DNA of 64,000 nt. It comes from Phoenix dactylifera. Taxonomy: Eukaryota > Streptophyta > Magnoliopsida > Arecales > Arecaceae. The stretch spans positions 39,723,668-39,787,667 of the forward strand of contig NC_052392.1 in the NCBI RefSeq assembly GCF_009389715.1. The letters run 5' to 3'. A program made the translations under genes and the position numbers. This document shows, in pieces, positions 124 through 29,709 of the stretch (positions are counted from its first letter, which is position 1; the number at the start of each line of letters is the position of its first letter). The notes beneath the pieces were generated by a model. The model saw nothing but the letters and a program-made list of their open reading frames with translations. It searched no databases and had not been told where the DNA came from.

Positions 124-3100
124 GTCACAGCCTCTGACAGAATTTACAATTCGTAAGTTCTATGCTATTGAGTAGTATTTTAATTTTTTTGTGCAGTTGA
201 GAAATTTGTGTCAAGGTCGGAGGAACCAGTACCGAGCATCGTATTGGTTTTCCGGCGGCCGGGGCTGTACTGACGAGGGCACGGTATTGTGAGAGAGAGG
301 AAAAGAGAGAGAGAAGGGGGAGAAAGGGAGAGAGGTTGGTAGACGCCGGCGGAGGGGCAGCGGAGGTTGCGGCAAGCAAGGCCACGGCCGGTTCTCCTGT
401 TTTGAACGAAACAGGGGTCCAGCCGCAGCTTAAAATTTTGTTTCGATTTGCCGACTTCACTTTAAAATTGCAAAATTTTTTAATTTTAGAATTTAAGTGA
501 AGTCAACAAGCGATTCGCCAACTTCACTTAAAAATTTTGAAATTTTTTGAGGCATGGTCGGACTCTATTTCGTTCGAAACAGGAAAACTCGGCCTCGGCC
601 TTGCCTGCCGCGGCCTCCCCCCCCGCGGCCCTCCACGGCCCTCCCTCTCACTCCCTCCCTCCCCCGCTTGCTCTCTCTTTCCTTCTCCTTTTCTAGCTCC
701 GGCAACGAGTCTCGTTTCCATTGCCAGAACCGTACTAGTGAGCCACCAGAAAGCCTCGGGACGGCCGGAACCATCCGGTTCGCGACGGTTCCGCTGACCT
801 TGATTTGTATTATGTGACCATGCTACATCTATGATATCATTATATGTTTCGAATCTCTATTCTTCTCAATTACTATGGAAAGAAGGGTGGGTTAGGGACA
901 AATAAAATCCATTTTATTCATGTATAATTTATTGTATAACAAAGTTGCTCCCAATTGCTGTTTGTTTGAAGATAACTAAAGGAATAAAGTTCAGGAAATT
1001 GATGAGTGGCAGCAACATGTTGATTTATAGTCTTTGTGAAGGGCAAAAATTCATGTGTGATCTATCGCACTGTACCTCCATCCGTGTGACATGAACAAGA
1101 ACTGCTAGTCTGTTAGTCTCTTCTTCAGACTACTTATGAATATTCATTTCAAATTTCAAATGATATTTGTACTCATAGCTAGCAAAAAGATTTGAATATG
1201 AATACAAATATCCACTCTTGCATGTCTACGAGGAATCATTCTATGAATTGAATTCTTTAACTGAATTGAACATTGCTGGATTCTCCTTTCATGCTTGTCA
1301 GAAACTCCTAGACTGATTAAGAGTTGTTCAAATTTACTGGACCGCAATATTTCCCTCACCTTGGACCAGATCCCCATTGGTTTAAGCAGGTTTCCTAGTC
1401 AAAGTCGGAATCATTGGAGTTGTCAAATAAACAGATAAGGAGACCCTGCCTCTTTATCCCTTATTCCTTTACCCTTTTTCCCTTTCTTTCTTTTTCTTTC
1501 ATCTGGCTTAATGTTATTCTCTTTTGCACTAGCAAGACAAGTAAACAACAAAAAATGTAGCCAATTGTGTGGTGTTCATCATATTGACATGTTCCAACTT
1601 CCAAGTTTGACAGTAGGTTTTTTTTTTCTAAAAGTTCTTCTGAATTGCTTGAATGTATCAAGACTTCCACAAAATTATTAAAAAAAAACTTATCCGCCAT
1701 TGGATTTGGTCGACAAATGAATGGGAACATTTTGGTCCTCACAACCAGAAAAATACAGTCTGCTGCTGAGTAGTTGCAAAGAATTAGACTTGTAACAAGG
1801 AGCTGAGGGCAGGTGTCATATGACCTGGAACCTAGTAGGATGAGGATGACACTTCAAGTTCACCTAAAGGGAAAAAGAAATCGTAATGTTCTGATCTCTA
1901 AATTATGGAATAGCATCTTAGAAATATAAGTCAATTTGAAACAATTGATCTAATAAAAATAATCTTTTTTTCAGAAAAACAGATGCACAAAAGGAAACAA
2001 GGGGAAAAATCTTCTTTAATGTCCCACACTCCTATTCCATCTTGTGCTCGGACATTGATATTATTTTTATGATCTTAAAAACTAAGTCAGAAGTTCCATT
2101 TTGATTTTTGTGGGGCTTGAAATGGGTGATCTCATACCTTAGATAATATGTGCATCTAAAAATAAGCAGCAGAATTAGGAGACATGAACTTTGCAATTTT
2201 CTTGGTATTCTATGTAGAAAAAATTGTCTCTTTCTTAATGTCCTGGTGGAACTAAAATATATTCAGAGAAGATAACTCCATCTAAATGTACATTGTAACA
2301 CTGAAGATCATTATATTGTTGCTCATGATTAAGAAAGTTTTAGTATCTTGAAACTCTGGATTTAAGACTCTACTGTAAACCTTTTATAACAGATGGTCTC
2401 TGGCCAAATTACAATGATGGAAGCTGGCCAGCATGCTGCAGTCACACTGATTTTGATATAAAAAAGGTGCAGAAATCACTGTTTCCTCAGAATATATTTA
2501 TATAGACATACACATGCATATATATCTTAATATCTTTTCCCTTGGCGACAAATTAAATCAAATAAATTTCTTTCTGACACTTTGGTGAGTATATCTGCAT
2601 GCAGGTTTCATCTTTAGTACCAGAACTTGAGAAGTACTGGCCATCCTTGTACTGCAGCACTCCCTCTCTTTGCTTTGGTGGAAGAGGACTGTTTTGGGCA
2701 CATGAGGTAGCAACAATTTCCTAATTACTTCCAAATATATTCACTCCGGTACATATAACTTACAAACTTTTGTTGTTTTAATGCATGTGTTGATTGGTTT
2801 GGACCTGGACAGTGGGGTAACTTGTCCTCTTAACCTTCCTTATGCGGTGGAGTAGAATACTGACCTTTAAAATAAATTTTGCATTATTTTCTTTAGAAGA
2901 AATCAATAAAGTTCTGTGAATATTTTGCCATTTATAAGTTCATGAAAATATAACTAAATTCAGAGGGTTTTGATATCCTTTCCTATTTCTTAGAAGGTTT
3001 CAAATGCTGGCCTCACGTATCATGCCGAGACAGTGCTGACACCTAGCATGAGTCAGCATGGCTCCAATTTATTCATTAATCAAAAAGAGTACTGTATTCT

Positions 3101-6100
3101 TTTTAATTATTTTTTTAGTTCAGCATGGTGTGGCAAATCTGCCAGATGTCACAATATGTGCAGGGTGGCTATCATATCCTCCAGCACTGGCACTTAAGTC
3201 CTTGATTTCTTATCCACCAGAAAATATAAAATTGTAATTACTGAACATACAATTAACTACTCATTGAAAAAAGAAAAGAAAGGAAATGATGTGCAAAAAA
3301 GAAATCTACACTTAGCTGGTACATATTGAAACAATGGTTTATCCATCCAGGTTTTAAATACTAATATTCACAAGGCACACATATAAAATAGAAAAGCCAT
3401 GATGCAGAGTTCCTTCTCAGGCATCTCCAAGCTGTGATTTACAGCTGTTCGCCATTGCCTGTCTTTTTAAAAAAGTAAGAGTCATGTTTTAAACCTGTAG
3501 TAAGGATTAGCTAAAAGGAAGAAGAAACTGAAACCTACAGTTCATTTTCAAAAATTATAGATGTCGCCAGTTTTGATTACCAGAACAAGGAATGTTTGAT
3601 GCATAGATATGGACAGAAAAACACCAGAAAGAAAAAAGGAAAGAAAAAACCAGGAAATACATGGAACATGTTTTGGGTTTCCATTGGACTTCTGATCCTA
3701 AATCTAGTAAATATTCCTTTTCCAATTAATATTTAAAAGTTAGAGCTGTATGACGGGGATCAATTGTTAGTTGTTATGGTTGCTCTCTTCTATTATATAT
3801 GCAGCATTCATTCTTCACTGTGTTTGATGCTTGCAGAAAAGCATGGGACATGTTCCTACCCAGTAATACAGGATGAGTATGATTACTTCTCCACGGTCCT
3901 TGATCTGTACTCCAAATACAATGTTACGGTTAGTGTTGGGGCTTTGGCACATTATATCTACTTCAATAGATCTCCTTATGTTTCCTTTATATTTCTACTA
4001 CTGCCTTGCTCAGTCTAAGTCTATGATCATGTTAGTCACCTTTTCCTCAATTTCAGATTTTTCTACAGTTCAAAATGATGAAACTCAACTTCTTGTTTAA
4101 CAAGTAAATATACAGGTCATATGTTATCATCTGATAGTTGAAAGCTATTGCAGTCAACTCTCTTCAAGAAATTAATTATGCGGTATTCATTTGACTGTTA
4201 TGTGTTCTAATATTTATGAAACTTTTCCTATTCTGGCCAGATCTTTTCCAGATAGCTTGAGCTAGGAAATCTAAATTTTTATGTCCAGCGAAAGCTGAAC
4301 TGTTGAATGTTGGAAACCTGATCTTGTACTGACAAGCAGTATTCCATGGAAGAAAATATTGAATACAAGATGATTTGAAATGCATTTATCATTACAATTC
4401 AACAAATCATACCATTCACCAGGTTTTAATCTTTCTGCAGTGTTCTTTGTGCATTAGAAATCACAGGAAATAGTAGAACAAGCAGTTTGCTATAGTAATG
4501 ATAGCAATATTATGCAACCACATAGGTAGAAGCAAATCTTACTGGCCAAATAAGGTGCATCTTAGAACTAAGTAGAAGCAAACCTTATAATTAATAATTT
4601 AACTACACTGTCCTTTGATGCATCCATTTCAGAGTATTATCAAGGTACTCTGCATGGTATCTGCAAACTTGAGTTATCATGCTTCCATTTTGCTTAACAG
4701 TTTGTTGTGGTTGCAGAGAATTTTGAGCAGTGCAGGTATCTTAGCTAGTAATGGTGACAGATATCCATTGGGAGATGTTATTTCCACCATTAAGAATGCC
4801 TTTGGGGCGTCACCCTTAGTGGTTTGCAGTCATGGTTCTGTGGAGGAACTTAGGTTGTGCTTCTACAAGGATTTTAAGGTCAGCCATAACTTTCCACCCA
4901 CAATTTCCTTCCAGTTGCCTTACTATGCGGGAATATCTTGTTTATACAACTCACCCATGACACACACATTTATCTGTCTACAGGCACATGGTTGGGTTAT
5001 TCACTTATTGATTGTGATTCAAGAATTTAGCTTGCTAGTCAGGGTCAGCTGTCTGCCATATCATTGTTTTAGTTTAAGAAATTCCACATAGCATACTCAG
5101 AAATTTGCATAGACGGAAACTACATTCATATTCCTGTAAAGTTGAAGGTAAACAGGAAAGCTGTAAATCTAGAGACTCAGGTCATTTCTAATTGCAACTT
5201 GCAAAGCACTGTCACAAGTCACAACTGATTAGTATTTTAGCATATATCATAAAAATCCAATGTTACAATCAGGATAAACATCAACCACTCTTTTGATCAT
5301 AGACGGACCAGATCAAACAACCGTAGTAGGTGGATAAGCGGTTGTTCCTAGTTGATAGGGGCAGGTACCTATTAAAGGTATTAGTATTTTAGTAATGTAA
5401 TTCAAAAGCATGCCCTAATCTTCAATTTTTGTCCATCTAGATCCTGTCGCCATCATAATGACCACAATCCTCTCCTCCCCTATCTCTATCCATCCTCCAT
5501 CTCTCTCTGGTGTCAGCTTCAGCTACCATCACTACCTTCTTAGTTGCTCTTCCCCCCTAACGACACCCAGCTTTGTTATTGTTGTTCTTACTGTTGGGTT
5601 GTGGCTGGCAGTAGGACCTTCATCTGCTCCATTGGTGGTCACTTTTCCCTCTTCTCCACCTCTCTTTACCTTCAATGTTTCTTAGCTGCCACTTGACTCC
5701 ACCCCGCTATTGCAGTTGGTCTGCTTTCGATCTCCCAACTAATATCCTTTGCATCTTTGGCCTTATTGTTCTGTGGCACTGTTTCTCTTAAGATTGTGGC
5801 TTGCTGCTGCTTCTTAGATTGTGGCTTGCCTTATTGTTCCATATGCCATTTGCCTTCTTAGCCTGGCAACTGAGGTTCCCACCTTTTTGTTGGAAAGGTG
5901 ATTGTCTAAGAAGTCATTTTTTTGTGTTATTTTCTCCGTACAAAATCATTTTTTGTCTTATTTTTTTGGTACAGAATCTTTTTTTTTTCTTTAACAAATT
6001 TATTGATGTCTTATTGGGTTGTTTAAGTCAGATGTGCAATCTTCAGACATAAAATTACTTTAGAGGCTACTACCTTTAGGTTTTTGATATGAGCTTTTGA

Positions 6101-6551
6101 GATCAGCAAGGGTTCCAGCTAATTAGGTGTTTGGGATTGCATTGTCCAAATCATATATATTATAGAGTTTGCTCATTTGTTATGATGCTGCAGGTGTACA
6201 AGGCCTTAACTTAATTGCATTGTGTCTGCCTTTTTTCAGCCTCGCGATTGCATAATGGGATCTGACATCATAGATGATGCATCATACTTACGAAGCTCTT
6301 GTCCTAGATATATCAGTTTACCTACATACGCTCCACTCGGTGAGTTTTTCAATTTATACATCGTTGAATCAGTTTAGAGGAAGGAGTTGCTCCTCCCAAT
6401 CATGCTTACTGAGGACACTCAGGTTACTTTCTTGTCACTATAGCGCTAAATTTACAGCTCGTACTCACTCTGTGCTCTTTTTTTGTTTTTTTGTGCAATG
6501 TCAGTTCTTGGTGATGCCAGTGGAGCAATGTCTTGGTCAACTGACCACTAA
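124..6551 (+). CDS. S-like RNase T2 (RNS2-type), 3' part of gene, 8 exons
   Basis: This is an endoribonuclease of the T2 family, probably secreted or vacuolar like plant RNS2; it cleaves RNA through 2',3'-cyclic phosphates. Exons I assembled: 124-152, 2393-2466, 2605-2706, 2813-2816, 3837-3928, 4717-4878, 6240-6339, 6505-6551 (TAA stop). Reading phase is kept at every junction. The first two exons together spell the catalytic motif CAS I (FTIHGLWP). Exons three to five spell CAS II (HEWEKHGTC), which needs the 4-nt exon. Catalytic His of both motifs, the Glu and the Lys are present. Conserved Cys pairs (WPACC, LYCS, FGG, VVC, LCFYKDF, RDC) follow in family order. The C-terminus is a short tail ending STDH. 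The signal peptide and the CCRG-type N-terminal exon must lie left of base 1. A simpler end at TAG 6375-6377 by intron read-through is possible, but a perfect donor (GTGAGT) follows 6339. Confidence 0.9.
211..803. repeat. Foldback/MITE-like element in RNase T2 intron
   Basis: The ends are inverted copies (TCAAGGTC..GGAACC at 211 and GGTTCC..GACCTTGA ending 803). Internal arms also pair: the CCTGTTTTGAACGAAACAGG stretch near 396 matches its complement near 572, and two inverted AAGTGAAGTC-type stretches lie near 455-530. GC-rich arms flank the AT-rich centre. TTTGT lies beside both ends and may be a target-site duplication. No transposase is encoded, so it is probably non-autonomous. The GGAACC/GGTACC-rich ends recur elsewhere in the window. 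Confidence 0.65.
804..2392. other. Intron of RNase T2, no recognised content
   Basis: AT-rich intron sequence following the foldback element. Short open frames on the minus strand (1156-1377, 1461-1742) have no recognisable family signature and are crossed by homopolymer tracts. Confidence 0.6.
2813..2816 (+). other. 4-nt microexon (TGGG) in the RNase T2 gene
   Basis: The exon before ends at CAT GAG (2706) in phase 0, and the exon after (3837) begins AA AAG CAT in a phase that needs one preceding base. At 2811-2818 the sequence reads AG|TGGG|GT, giving TGG G|AA, that is Trp-Glu, which completes HEWEKHGTC, the second catalytic motif of RNase T2. The flanking introns are 106 nt and 1020 nt. 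Without it the frame breaks and the conserved WE is lost. This is seen in sequence plus family knowledge; transcript data were not available. Confidence 0.8.
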
Positions 6552-14330: not shown

Positions 14331-17300
14331 CTACCATGTAAAAGCTGGCAAAGCATAAGATGGATGGGCATCATATTTACAAGCCAGAGACTGAACTGCA
14401 TCAGTGCCTGCAACTTCCCCAAAGCCACTAAGTCCAAGTTCCGTAGCATGAATCCCCCCAGTAATAAATGCAGATGCAATTCCAGCTGCATTTGCACCCT
14501 TTACGTCATGGTGGAGAGAGTCTCCCACAGCGATACAGTCACAAGCATTTACACCAGCCATGGCCATAGCTGATGTATAGATCACCTGACAAAAGTTTGA
14601 TATATTACACTCCTGAACCACAAACAAATTAAAATATGTTCTCCTAAAAAGAGAAAAGAAGGAAAAAGTATTTCTTTTGCTTTATACAAATTTTTTTTAA
14701 AAATACAGAGACGAACAACAAACATGGAACACCAAACCAAACATTAAAAACAATGCTAAGAGATATTATTGAAAAGTCTAAGTCGACTAGTAAAATATAA
14801 TCCAAACATTATACACTTGAATGTTAACACATACAAATCCAATTAAAAAATCAAAACTAGAAAAGAGGCCTGGTTGATTACTAGCCTGCTCAACTGCAGA
14901 TACCCACATGTTCACCCACACGAAGGATAAACTCACATTTGTTAAATCCTTCATAGTAGAGTTAATGGAGCAATCAAATTGACAACCATTCAAACAAAAG
15001 ATCTATATTGTTGATCATTATCTACAACTATTAAAAATTCTTCGAATCCAAAATTATACGTTTTGAGGTCTCCTTATGCATCAAGTGAATGCTAAATGGG
15101 CAATATTAATAGTCTAATTTTGAAGCACAACCAGACACTATGATTCTTAGGAAATTAAATATATTGTTCATCCTTGCAGTACCAGCATGGCCCAAGCTAC
15201 TTAGGATGTAACCACAATTAACATAACTACGGTCGGGCTATCGAACACGGAGTCAGAAGTGAATTACGAGTCGGACCAATTTGCGAAGCGAGCTCGTCTT
15301 CAGTGCTCTCCGAACCATGTGGGAAGGTTTCCCATCACACAGCTCACCAACTTGATCTTCCGCATTCGGAGCTATTAGAGCGGGATCCACTTTTTGGGGA
15401 ATATGAGTCGGACCAATAACAAGAATATTTCTAGTGGAACATCTTTCACAATCCCTGGAGAGATAGTTTTCTAATAGACCAAGAGATAAGTAATTCGTTT
15501 CAAATGAGAAGACTTATTCACAACTCTTCCATTCTTCACATAAAATGCATTAAGACTATACCAGGCAGGTTCAAATTCAGAATCATCACATGATAGTTTT
15601 GGAATGTTTTCTGTGAAAATGAAGTGTCAAGTTGTATACCAAACTCATGATTGATCTACATAAACCATAAACAAAATACAAGAAACTAAACCATTTTTTA
15701 AAATTCATTCACTAAAAAGGAAGGTTGAAAAAGAGTTAAATGTAGTAAACTAATTTTTGGAAAATCAATTCGTAAAACTAAAGCATAGAATGGGGCAGGC
15801 GCCCATAGAAGAGCCTTAATAAGCACAGTCCTAACCAAGCGACCGGGGGCTTGGGCACCGACTATCCGAACCTTTGAATGTGATCTGCTATCTCTAATTA
15901 GCTTTCAAAAAATCATGACACTTGGAGATCCCTAACATATGCATTGCCTAACAAAGATGGATAATTTAAAAAACATGAAACAATACATATTTTTTCATCA
16001 TTGAATGCATATGCTAGGTATCTCGAATTCAAATGAATTATTCCTAGCAAGCAGATTAGAGATAGTAGATCACATCAAATAGCTCAGATCATTGGTGTCA
16101 AGCCCCTAGTCATTCGGTTAGGACCAACCTTATTAGGACTCGTGTGGGTGCCCACATATTAGCACTATTCTAGAACCAGCCTTAGCAGTAAATATCTAAA
16201 TAAGAGGAGGTGTATTGGGAACATGAAATACAAGAAGAGTAGAAACAACTTGCATTTTAGGGATTCCCCCATTGAAATAGCAAGAATGAAGAAGATATAA
16301 AGATCATAAAAGAACAGGAAAAAAATAAATAGCCTGGGCTGTTAAGAAATATTGATCTTCCTCATATTCTTATCTTATTAGTGATTTTTCTTTTTTGCTG
16401 GATTATTTTCTCCATATATTCCTCCAGCACTACTATTCTTCTTCTTCCAACACACTCAAAAAGAGGACTTAGAAATAGGTGGGATGCATGGAATATGAGG
16501 TGCTAATCTGCAAGGAGCTCAAATTAACCGTTGTCTGGTAAGCAGCAGGGAATCTATTCATATAATCATCAACCATGCATACAGGTATTAATGACCATGA
16601 TTAGTCAAAAAATTTCATGCAGTTTAGTCAAAAAAGCAAACCCACATCCATATGTGAAATCCACAAAGCGACTGTATAACAAATTACAGGGATAGCCTAT
16701 AAGTGACTATCCATATTCATCAACTTCTGCTATATCCCGGGAAGGCCCCAAATTCAGGGGGTTGTCAGCAGCTTTTGTCTAGTAATCTGACTAGTTCAGA
16801 ACTAAAAAACCTAATATTATGATTTTAATGGGAACCTATGGAAATTCCTATATATCTGCATAAAAGTTTCCTGACTGAAAAATAAAGTATGATTGAAGGA
16901 GAAATTTTATCATTGCGAGATAGAGAGCAGTTTGAAATGCCGTAACAACCACTAAAACAAAAATTAACCCATTACCTTATCAGGTTTACCCATCCATTTG
17001 ACTTCACCACCAAGTTTTTCATATTTAGCTCCCAGTGTACCTAGAAGGAAGAGGAAAAAAATTAATGACCCACTAAACACAAGTATGTAATTTCATTTTT
17101 CAAACTGAATGATTGTACATGATGGAAAATAAGGAAAATTCTTTCAGGATTAAAGACTAAAAGCACATTTCCTATTCAAACTACTCGAAGCAAAAGTTGT
17201 TTTCTCCCCTGCCCCCTCTACATGACATTTACTACAATAATTAAAGTCTCTGTTATAAAGTTCAAGTTATGTGAATCATACGTAAATCAAGATCAATGAG

Positions 17301-26355: not shown

Positions 26356-29300
26356 TCGGCCAAAAGGTGCATGATCCTCCTGCATCAGTTACAAAAATTG
26401 GATTACTGTAAATGGATATCCACAACATCAGGAATTGATATTGCTTCTACAATCCGCATGGTTAAATGAAAAATCAGACAATAATACTGATAAATAGAAA
26501 CCTGTAGCATTTGTTGATATATCCACTGCATCCCTGATGAATTTCCAACTGTTTGTTGGCCAAATTGACTCTGTAAAAGTGTTTGTTGTTCAATAAGAGA
26601 TTGGAATGTAAAGCTCTTCATATTAATTAATTTTTTTCTTTTGTGAAAAAAAAAAGAGCATTTAGCTTAGCCAGCACTTCATTTCAACGGTGTACCAGAC
26701 CACCAGTTACCTATAACATGAACTCTTTCATTTGTATCCTTAGAAGTCCATGAATAGCGACAAGAGATGGAAGAAAGAAAAACACATCTTTCAATGGTTA
26801 TTTTCCAAACCTGTAACAAATTGGCAGACTGCAACTGGTTGCCAAGATGATGTTGGTGGTTAGCTTGTAGTCCAAAATGGTTACCAAATGACAGGTCATT
26901 TGGATTAACTTCCTCCTATCGACATCATGATGGAAGAAAAGAATAAGCATCTACTAGGTAGTTTGTGCAGCTAAAGTTGATGTGAATCTATGAGAATGTG
27001 AAAGTAGTTTCATGAAAGCATAAGATGTATAAGATGTTTGAGAAAATAGGAGACCATTAGATCAACGCCACCATGTGTCCTAATATGACTGCCAAGGTGT
27101 GAAGCAGTAGAGGCAGCTTGAAACACATTACTCTGACCCCCATCTGATGATGCCCTCAAAGAGTCCTGCCCAGATAATGAAGATGTGGTCACAATCTAAT
27201 AAACAAACAATTGAAAACTAAAAGATGAATGACCTTAAACTACTCAAGTACCTTTTGATTACTTGGACTAGATATCATCTCTGTATTAGACTCTTCTTTC
27301 CTTTTCTTGGGTGGACGGCCTCTGCGCTTTACTGGCAAGGAGTTAGGGATTTTGTTACCCTCAGTGATGCCCAGCTGAGATGCCGCATGATTTTCGTCAC
27401 TTGCATTTGACCTAGTTTCAAATGGCAGAAGCCTACGTTGCAAGTCTCGGCATGTGTTATCATCTAGAAGAGATTTTTCCACTTCCCTCAATAGCTTCAG
27501 TGCAAGCTGGTACTTCTCTTCGGATATCATACCAACCTCAACAAGTTGAAGGCAACGCATAGATAGATAATCATACCGCTCCATTTGATTATTACCTACG
27601 ACATCTTTTGAGTAACGATCCAAAGCGAACAGCTGCTTGAAGTCCTTTGTCCAGCGTTGGAGAATGTACTGAGCTGGAATTTCATACATTTGTTGCAACT
27701 TAAACACAGATAATGCATGTCTGCATAGGATCCCTCTAAACTCAAAAGAGCCACAGATACAGTGAACATCAAACTCATCTACATTGTAGAAAACTTCATA
27801 ATGCCTATCTTGTGCATTTTCACCACCTTCCATAAAAGCACATTCTTTGACTTCAAAGGTAGAGATAGGGCCATCAACCTTAACAAGCGAAACCTGACAA
27901 TGAACAATGGCCTTCAACTCATCCTGAAATTTTTTGAACATGTTAAGCGTATATAATTTGGACAGATGCTCTTCCATATGTAATTTTGTTACAAAGACTC
28001 GGCCCTTATGAAATGAATCCAAATCAGCCTGGGCTTCCATTTCATATTTAGTTTTTAAAACCATCTCATAATTACTTAAAAAACACTTTAAAGAAGTTTC
28101 TGGATATACACACCCTTCAAAAAAGGTAGTTATACTCTCCTTTTGTCTAGCAATGGACATTCCTGCCCAGAATGTGTTTTTCAGGAAAACTGGAGCCCAT
28201 AATTGTCGATTTTCATATAAGAAATTAAGCCATTCACTACCTTCGAGGCCATATCTCTTAATCAGATCCCTCCAGCATTCTTCAAATTCATCAATTCTCA
28301 ACGAATCATATACTACTTTCTTCAAATCCTTCTTAAGTGTTTTGTATTCTTCAAAATCTCTCAATTTCTGTTGAACATTCTTCATTATATGCCATAAGCA
28401 AATACGATGACGGGCTTCTGGAAAAACCTCAGCGACTGCACCTTGAATTGCCTCACATTCATCAGTAATTATGGCATTTGGAGGGCATCCTCGCATACAT
28501 GTTAACCATGCTTTAAATAACCATAAGTAATTTTCGGTGGTTTCATCTGAAACCAAACCACAACCCAACAACACCAACTGACCATGATGGTTCACTCCAA
28601 CAAATAAAGCAAGAGGGATATCATATTTATTTTTTAAGCAGGTTGTATCAAAATAAACAACATCACTGAAATATTGATATGCTGCTCTAGACCTAGAATC
28701 AGCCCAAAACACATTCCTCAGATGACCTTCCACATCCAAATCCAGCAAGTAAAAGAAATTTGGGTTCTTAGTCTGCATCCGTGCAAAAAACTGGTGGATG
28801 GCTTCATCATCACCCTCTCCAAGCTTCAACCTTCCTCCTTCAATGGAGTTTACACAATCCTTATCACCAAATAGCAAGTCTTCATGTCCAGCTGCTCGCA
28901 CAGCAAGATCTTTAGTCATTCCACTAGACATTTTTTTATAGCATCTCAAAAAACGGGCAGTTGATGGACTAACTGCATGATTGTGTTCAAGATTAGCTTC
29001 CACCAAATGCAGCAACCCATCACCCCATAATTTCACTATGATCATAGCTTGACAATTTGTCTTTGCAGTAGGTCTTGACTGGTAGCATGCACTTGCCCGT
29101 CCCTTTCCCCCCTTAGTGCATACAAGCACTAACCGGCGACAGAGACCATAAGTTGTAAATGAAGATTTTTTTACAGCTACACCAAATCCTACACGCAGAG
29201 CATACCGCTTGTAAAAGTTAACAACTTCTTCATAAGATTTGAATACCATTCCCACCTGAGGAGTTCTATCATCTAGTCCAGTGACCTTACGGCCCTCCTC

Positions 29301-29709
29301 TAGTTCAGCCTTGTCACCATCATCATCGTCATTCTCAGGAGCAGCTGCTGCTTTTCCTCCATCCATTGGCTCTTGATTGATAGAATCAGCTAGCATATTC
29401 TGAGAGAATGAAAAAGAAACCCCTAATTTATAGGGAAAAAAAAAAGAACAACAGAAACCTCATAACATGTATATACTGATCATATTTCCTACAAAAGCTA
29501 GAGAGAAGATTATGGGGTACTAATTCATTACCGACCTGAGAGATTTCATCATCTTCTGTGGTTGTTCTGCCATTCACCCCATCCTCGTCATAGTTTTTAT
29601 CTAAATAAGCATCACCATTCATCAGCATTATTTCTTTCTCCTGATTATATCTGCCTTCCATGAGAGAAGGATTAGAATTCCCCAGAAAGAAGCTTTCCGA
29701 ATGGACCAT
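26344..29709 (-). CDS. FAR1-RELATED SEQUENCE (FRS/FHY3-FAR1 family) protein, 6 exons
   Basis: This is an ~890-aa nuclear transcription regulator derived from a Mutator-like transposase. Exons on minus: 29709-29536, 29399-27252, 27195-27055, 26915-26811, 26570-26502, 26379-26344 (TAA). Domains: an acidic N-terminus; an FAR1 DNA-binding zinc finger (about residues 109-205, CRRLVLVC..C..LEHNHAV); an MULE transposase-like domain (about 280-400, YFDTTCLKNKYDIPLALFVG, then ITDECEAI, then RHRICLWHIMKN); and a SWIM zinc finger (CICGSFEFRGILCRHAL, near 610). A basic AT-hook-like tail RRGRPPKKRK closes the large exon. Four small exons add a Ser/Gln/His-rich tail (QANHQHHLGNQLQ, QWIYQQMLQ), typical of some FRS members. 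Upstream, a GC-rich block at 31440-31740 with a 15-G run probably holds the 5' UTR. Family is certain; the exact orthologue is not. Confidence 0.93.

Follow-up and report, generated by a model that had tools for sequence, protein, structure and literature searches.

The window, a 64-kb stretch (64,000 nucleotides) of Phoenix dactylifera DNA, contains all but the first exon of a gene that, judged from its sequence, is a class II RNase T2 gene of the RNS2 type. The spliced product matched the RNase T2 family in Pfam (PF00445) with 142.9 bits and has both active-site motifs, FTIHGLWP (CAS I) and HEWEKHGTC (CAS II). Among the listed homologs its best match was coconut ribonuclease 2 (P0001), to which the 266-residue product aligned without gaps, with 222 of 239 residues identical (93%). 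The top matches of the protein search were, where named, ribonuclease 2 or ribonuclease 2-like, and the class was judged from them without a tree. The RNS2 assignment proposed in the sequence-only reading is thus borne out by the Pfam score and the coconut match. RNS2-type enzymes are vacuolar housekeeping enzymes that recycle rRNA. Extending over about 8 kb, the palm gene has nine exons and eight introns once a 4-nt exon, TGGG, is counted; the intron phases are, in order, 2, 1, 0, 0, 1, 0, 0 and 1.

L009:6449-6639 (window -1551 to -1361), plus strand: exon 1, upstream of the window, ending 1.36 kb before it
124..152, plus strand: exon 2 (frame, GT-AG ends, coconut protein match)
2393..2466, plus strand: exon 3, remainder of CAS I (frame, GT-AG ends, coconut protein match)
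2605..2706, plus strand: exon 4, ending in ..FWAHE, the first half of CAS II (frame, splice sites)
2707..2812, plus strand: upstream flanking intron, 106 nt, phase 0, gtagca..gacag (frame, splice sites)
2813..2816, plus strand: exon 5, the 4-nt microexon TGGG, Trp and the first base of Glu (enumeration, comparative support)
2817..3836, plus strand: downstream flanking intron, 1,020 nt, phase 1, gtaact..ttgcag (frame, splice sites)
3837..3928, plus strand: exon 6, starting with (E)KHGTC, the second half of CAS II (frame, splice sites)
4717..4878, plus strand: exon 7 (frame, coconut protein match)
6240..6339, plus strand: exon 8 (frame, coconut protein match)
6505..6551, plus strand: exon 9, coding part, ending in ..STDH and the TAA stop (frame, coconut protein match)

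The intron between 152 and 2393 interrupts CAS I within its His codon (FTI-H-GLWP), so that both active-site motifs are interrupted. Elsewhere in the window, the minus strand carries a match to the group II intron family RF00029 at 15247-15347 (42.4 bits, gathering threshold 40), perhaps an insertion of organelle DNA into this nuclear contig, and an uninterrupted 718-residue frame at 27240-29396 with FAR1, MULE and SWIM domains, a FAR1/FRS-like gene.

The exon-intron structure is that of class II genes. Ramanauskas & Igic 2017 (PMC5598434) reported that each of the 46 class II genes they analysed has eight introns; these lie at positions 3, 4, 5, 6, 7, 8, 10 and 11, and their phases are invariant. 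Phase 0 is stated for positions 5, 8 and 10, and phase 2 is implied for position 3. When the palm introns are numbered in order, their phases agree at positions 3, 5, 8 and 10. With the class II genes (Arabidopsis RNS2, tomato RNase LER, Nicotiana NGR2) the palm gene shares the sequence family and the eight introns, and no differing feature was found. This numbering would place the microexon between introns 6 and 7; the accessible part of that article's text gives no size for the exon between these positions. A search of the palm genome, in which only the best candidates were scored, matched the exons in the window and loci on contigs C15, C6, C3, C9 and C10. Class II genes usually occur as one copy per genome; among the listed best candidates, with the loci on C15, C6 and C3 inspected, there was no second class II copy, and hence no paralog to serve as an independent test from the same genome. 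The loci on C15, C6 and C3 (L001, L002 and L003) carry an uninterrupted coding frame for HEWEKHGTC. This is what class I genes should show, since PMC5598434 describes them as lacking these introns.

At the end of exon 4 the DNA reads ..CAT GAG/gtagca, the microexon is bordered as cag/TGGG/gtaact (that is, AG/TGGG/GT), and at 3837 gcag is followed by an exon opening with AAAAGCATGGGACATGT. Joining the three pieces gives CAT GAG TGG GAA AAG CAT GGG ACA TGT, which translates to HEWEKHGTC. TGGG therefore has the properties of an internal coding exon within the 1-15 nt range, with canonical splice sites. We enumerated all GT/GC-AG solutions with a first donor at 2680-2740, an inserted exon of 1-45 nt, a last acceptor from 3790 onward and introns of at least 30 nt. 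Within these bounds no one-intron solution produced HExxKHG[TS]C, and the one-intron reading of the motif was ruled out. Twelve two-intron solutions did so, and TGGG alone supplied the Trp; at its place the other 11 had H (2), F (1), G (1), K (1) or V (6). Sequence, frame and enumeration hence bear out the original proposal that a 4-nt exon completes HEWEKHGTC. Its further claim that the motif can be read only in this way is correct for the exact motif HEWEKHGTC and too strong for rescue of the frame, which the 11 other solutions also achieve.

The bare pattern carries less weight. AGTGGGGT occurs in the 64-kb window once on the plus strand (at 2811) and twice on the minus strand, and it appeared in 214 of 20,000 dinucleotide-preserving shuffles of 2707-3836 (about 0.011). 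AG/TGGG/GT is in itself a chance event of roughly 1 in 100, and the strong evidence is comparative. By eye, neither donor (gtagca, gtaact) is strong, since position +5 is not G in either, and neither resembles a U12-type donor, so U12-type introns were rejected. RNA structure that would bring the splice sites together was likewise rejected: no pairing of splice sites stood out in the fold of 2690-2850 (z +1.68), and 195 of 200 shuffles folded at least as well.

The sequence-only reading had also held that automatic annotation would likely lose catalytic-motif residues here. We take the catalytic residues of tomato RNase LE within HEWEKHGTC to be the first His, the first Glu, Lys and the second His; the motif in that enzyme (1dix) is identical to that of the palm product. 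Placed on the palm gene, these residues fall in exons 4 and 6, so that the main role of the microexon would be continuity of frame and motif. By these positions it would contribute Trp, one base of Glu and the frame, and none of the catalytic His, Glu or Lys residues. The microexon does complete the motif, as claimed, but catalytic residues are lost through the frameshift and not with the exon's own codons. When TGGG is skipped, the frame shifts and the tenth codon past the join is a stop. With the upstream intron kept, the product reads HEVATIS and then stops; with the downstream intron kept, it reads HEWGNLSS and then stops.

We compared the palm protein with plant homologs, 172 distinct ones listed of the 525 and 523 found in two protein searches. 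These were grouped by the longest contig holding each: 34 on contigs of 0.9-4.1 kb, 129 (genome-anchored) on ones of at least 27.8 kb and nine without a contig. Because the palm gene is itself about 8 kb long, contigs of 0.9-4.1 kb were read as cDNA assemblies, and from their size we infer that they are transcripts. The motif HE[WY]x[KRT]HGTC, widened after HEYEKHGTC, HEWETHGTC and HEWGRHGTC had been met, was present in 34/34 transcript-like, 85/129 genome-anchored and 5/9 contig-less proteins among the 172 listed. It was absent from 44 of the 129 genome-anchored proteins versus none of the 34 transcript-like ones (Fisher p 6.2e-6, kinship ignored). Under the stricter HEW[EG]KHGTC, applied to the first 120 proteins, 1/30 short-contig, 18/85 long-contig and 1/5 contig-less proteins were not intact (p 0.023), and the single short-contig exception reads HEYEKHGTC. 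The 34 transcript-like proteins comprise 30 with HEWEKHGTC, two with HEWGKHGTC, one with HEYEKHGTC and one with HEWGRHGTC; the Trp of the microexon is thus present in coconut and in 33 of these 34, the remaining one having Tyr. HEYEKHGTC was seen in P0093 (Dioscorea) and P0047; of these two, one comes from a short contig and the other is genome-anchored. Some plants may have Tyr in place of the microexon's Trp, as TA[CT]G would give.

The breaks concentrate at the microexon. Relative to the palm protein, gaps at the microexon junction occurred in 35/129 genome-anchored, 0/34 transcript-like and 3/9 other proteins. At intron positions 4, 5, 8 and 10, by comparison, 3, 1, 6 and 0 of the 129 genome-anchored proteins were gapped and none of the transcript-like ones, one of which does not cover positions 3, 4, 5 and 11. 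Positions 3 and 11 were gapped in 94 and 51 of the 129 genome-anchored proteins and also in 18 and 10 of the 34 transcript-like ones; we read these gaps as natural indels. Automatic annotation had been predicted to stumble over so small an exon, and this is what the other plants display: motifs are missing from genome-anchored proteins and from none of the transcript-like ones, and gaps are frequent at the microexon junction and rare at four other junctions in conserved sequence.

Several of the broken models retain traces of the exon borders. In six models WEKHGTC does not directly follow HE, and in four of these it is preceded by Q (Castanea P0098, Shorea P0126, Prosopis P0131 and Solanum P0171), as expected of CAG/TGGG. 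The other two have no such trace, with V (Ulmus P0132) or F (Rubus P0147) before WEKHGTC. In P0131, from Prosopis cineraria, 36 residues beginning with V and ending with Q separate HE from WEKHGTC, as expected of a retained upstream intron of 108 nt; the palm intron has 106 nt. Three models (Ensete P0004, Ananas P0008 and Prunus dulcis P0141) run from HEWGK or HEWGN into foreign residues, as expected of read-through from TGGG/GTAA, for which the palm equivalent is HEWGN. Among the 48 homologs lacking the motif, ..W.HE was recognisable in 38, and the next residue was V in 19 of these 38, as expected of reading into GT (V = GTN). The sequence-only reading had pointed to RNS2 genes of other plants as the place to look for the same exon; at the protein level, border traces were found in seven species, while P0132 and P0147 are without the Q. 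As amino acids leave codons open, these traces are strong hints rather than proof in DNA, and they suggest that the position of the microexon is conserved across monocots and eudicots.

The homologs without the motif could instead be true losses in those plants. Their number (44 of 129) would fit this, and PMC5598434 has three class II members in which the canonical His is missing. However, no transcript-like homolog lacks the motif, many of the broken models run into intron-like sequence (the V after HE), and the other junctions are seldom gapped, which makes true loss an improbable account. Of the genome-anchored class II RNase T2 proteins listed, about a third (44/129) are without an intact motif, most likely through annotation error at this single site, and surveys that judge plant RNase activity from predicted proteins would reach wrong conclusions.

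Overall, we consider it very probable that the palm gene belongs to class II of RNase T2 and has a constitutively spliced 4-nt coding microexon, TGGG, whose flanking introns are removed consecutively. A 4-nt exon can hardly hold the 3' and 5' splice-site complexes simultaneously. The two GT-AG introns (106 and 1,020 nt) would be excised one after the other, the microexon first being joined to one neighbour and from then on forming the end of an exon of ordinary size. Inclusion of TGGG would restore the frame and keep CAS II (HEWEKHGTC) intact, and presumably yield an active enzyme; omission would lead to an early stop and an inactive fragment, and nonsense-mediated decay would probably degrade the transcript. 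Yu et al. 2022 (PMC8831610) reported that plant microexons probably lose their flanking introns in succession, with detention more frequent for the upstream intron; the Prosopis model P0131, which retains the upstream intron but not the downstream one, fits such an order.

Alternatively, the microexon could be real and alternatively spliced, its skipping serving as a regulated off-switch of RNS2 activity. Because it sits inside an active-site motif and its length is not a multiple of three, skipping truncates the product, and its inclusion rate could in principle set the amount of active RNS2 and hence rRNA recycling in a tissue; raised retention of introns beside plant microexons (PMC8831610) points the same way. 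Yet the residues are absent from none of the 34 transcript-like homologs, in a search that favours full-length proteins and tends to miss truncated ones, and class II genes are often constitutively expressed (PMC5598434). We regard an off-switch as unlikely, and the proposed control of rRNA recycling by inclusion rate as equally doubtful. Least probable of all is that TGGG is a chance match produced by looking for the motif, the real transcript using another small exon or the gene decaying: the recurrence of AGTGGGGT in shuffles and the 11 further solutions that hold the frame but replace the Trp allow for it, but only TGGG would give the palm product the Trp seen in coconut and in nearly all transcript-like relatives, the rest of the gene is intact, and traces of AG/TGGG/GT occur in other plants.

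A constitutive microexon in this gene would be of a known kind. Yu et al. 2022 (PMC8831610) described 45 clusters of conserved plant microexons, 1-15 nt in size, and the RNase T2 exon is quite possibly already listed, as a survey of this kind should have caught an exon of a housekeeping gene that occurs across flowering plants. Since the clusters cited as examples there are numbered by increasing size, cluster 3 or 4 would fit; cluster 4 is confined to flowering plants, and class II genes are said to have arisen with angiosperms (PMC9250077). The terms RNase T2, "ribonuclease", "RNase" and "RNS2" do not occur in the main texts of PMC8831610 and PMC12409088; the supplement of PMC8831610 may list the exon. 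The accessible portions of PMC9250077, PMC7994793, PMC9762611 and PMC7793952 do not mention a TGGG exon. We found no literature linking RNS2 or RNase T2 with a microexon, and a 4-nt exon together with a ribonuclease led to just a paper on MPC1 (PMC9929638). Animal MPC1 also has a 4-bp exon, reported there to be constitutively included, but the gene and the lineage are unrelated to the palm RNase. For the question of how the spliceosome recognises a 4-nt exon, TGGG offers a clean case in a housekeeping gene. Like the microexons described in PMC8831610 and in MEPDB (PMC12409088), it is coding, at most 15 nt long, not a multiple of three and prone to misannotation; it shares its size with the named 4-nt cluster, RECQ3 (cluster 5), and differs from it in phase, 0 in the palm gene and 2 in RECQ3 (PMC8831610).
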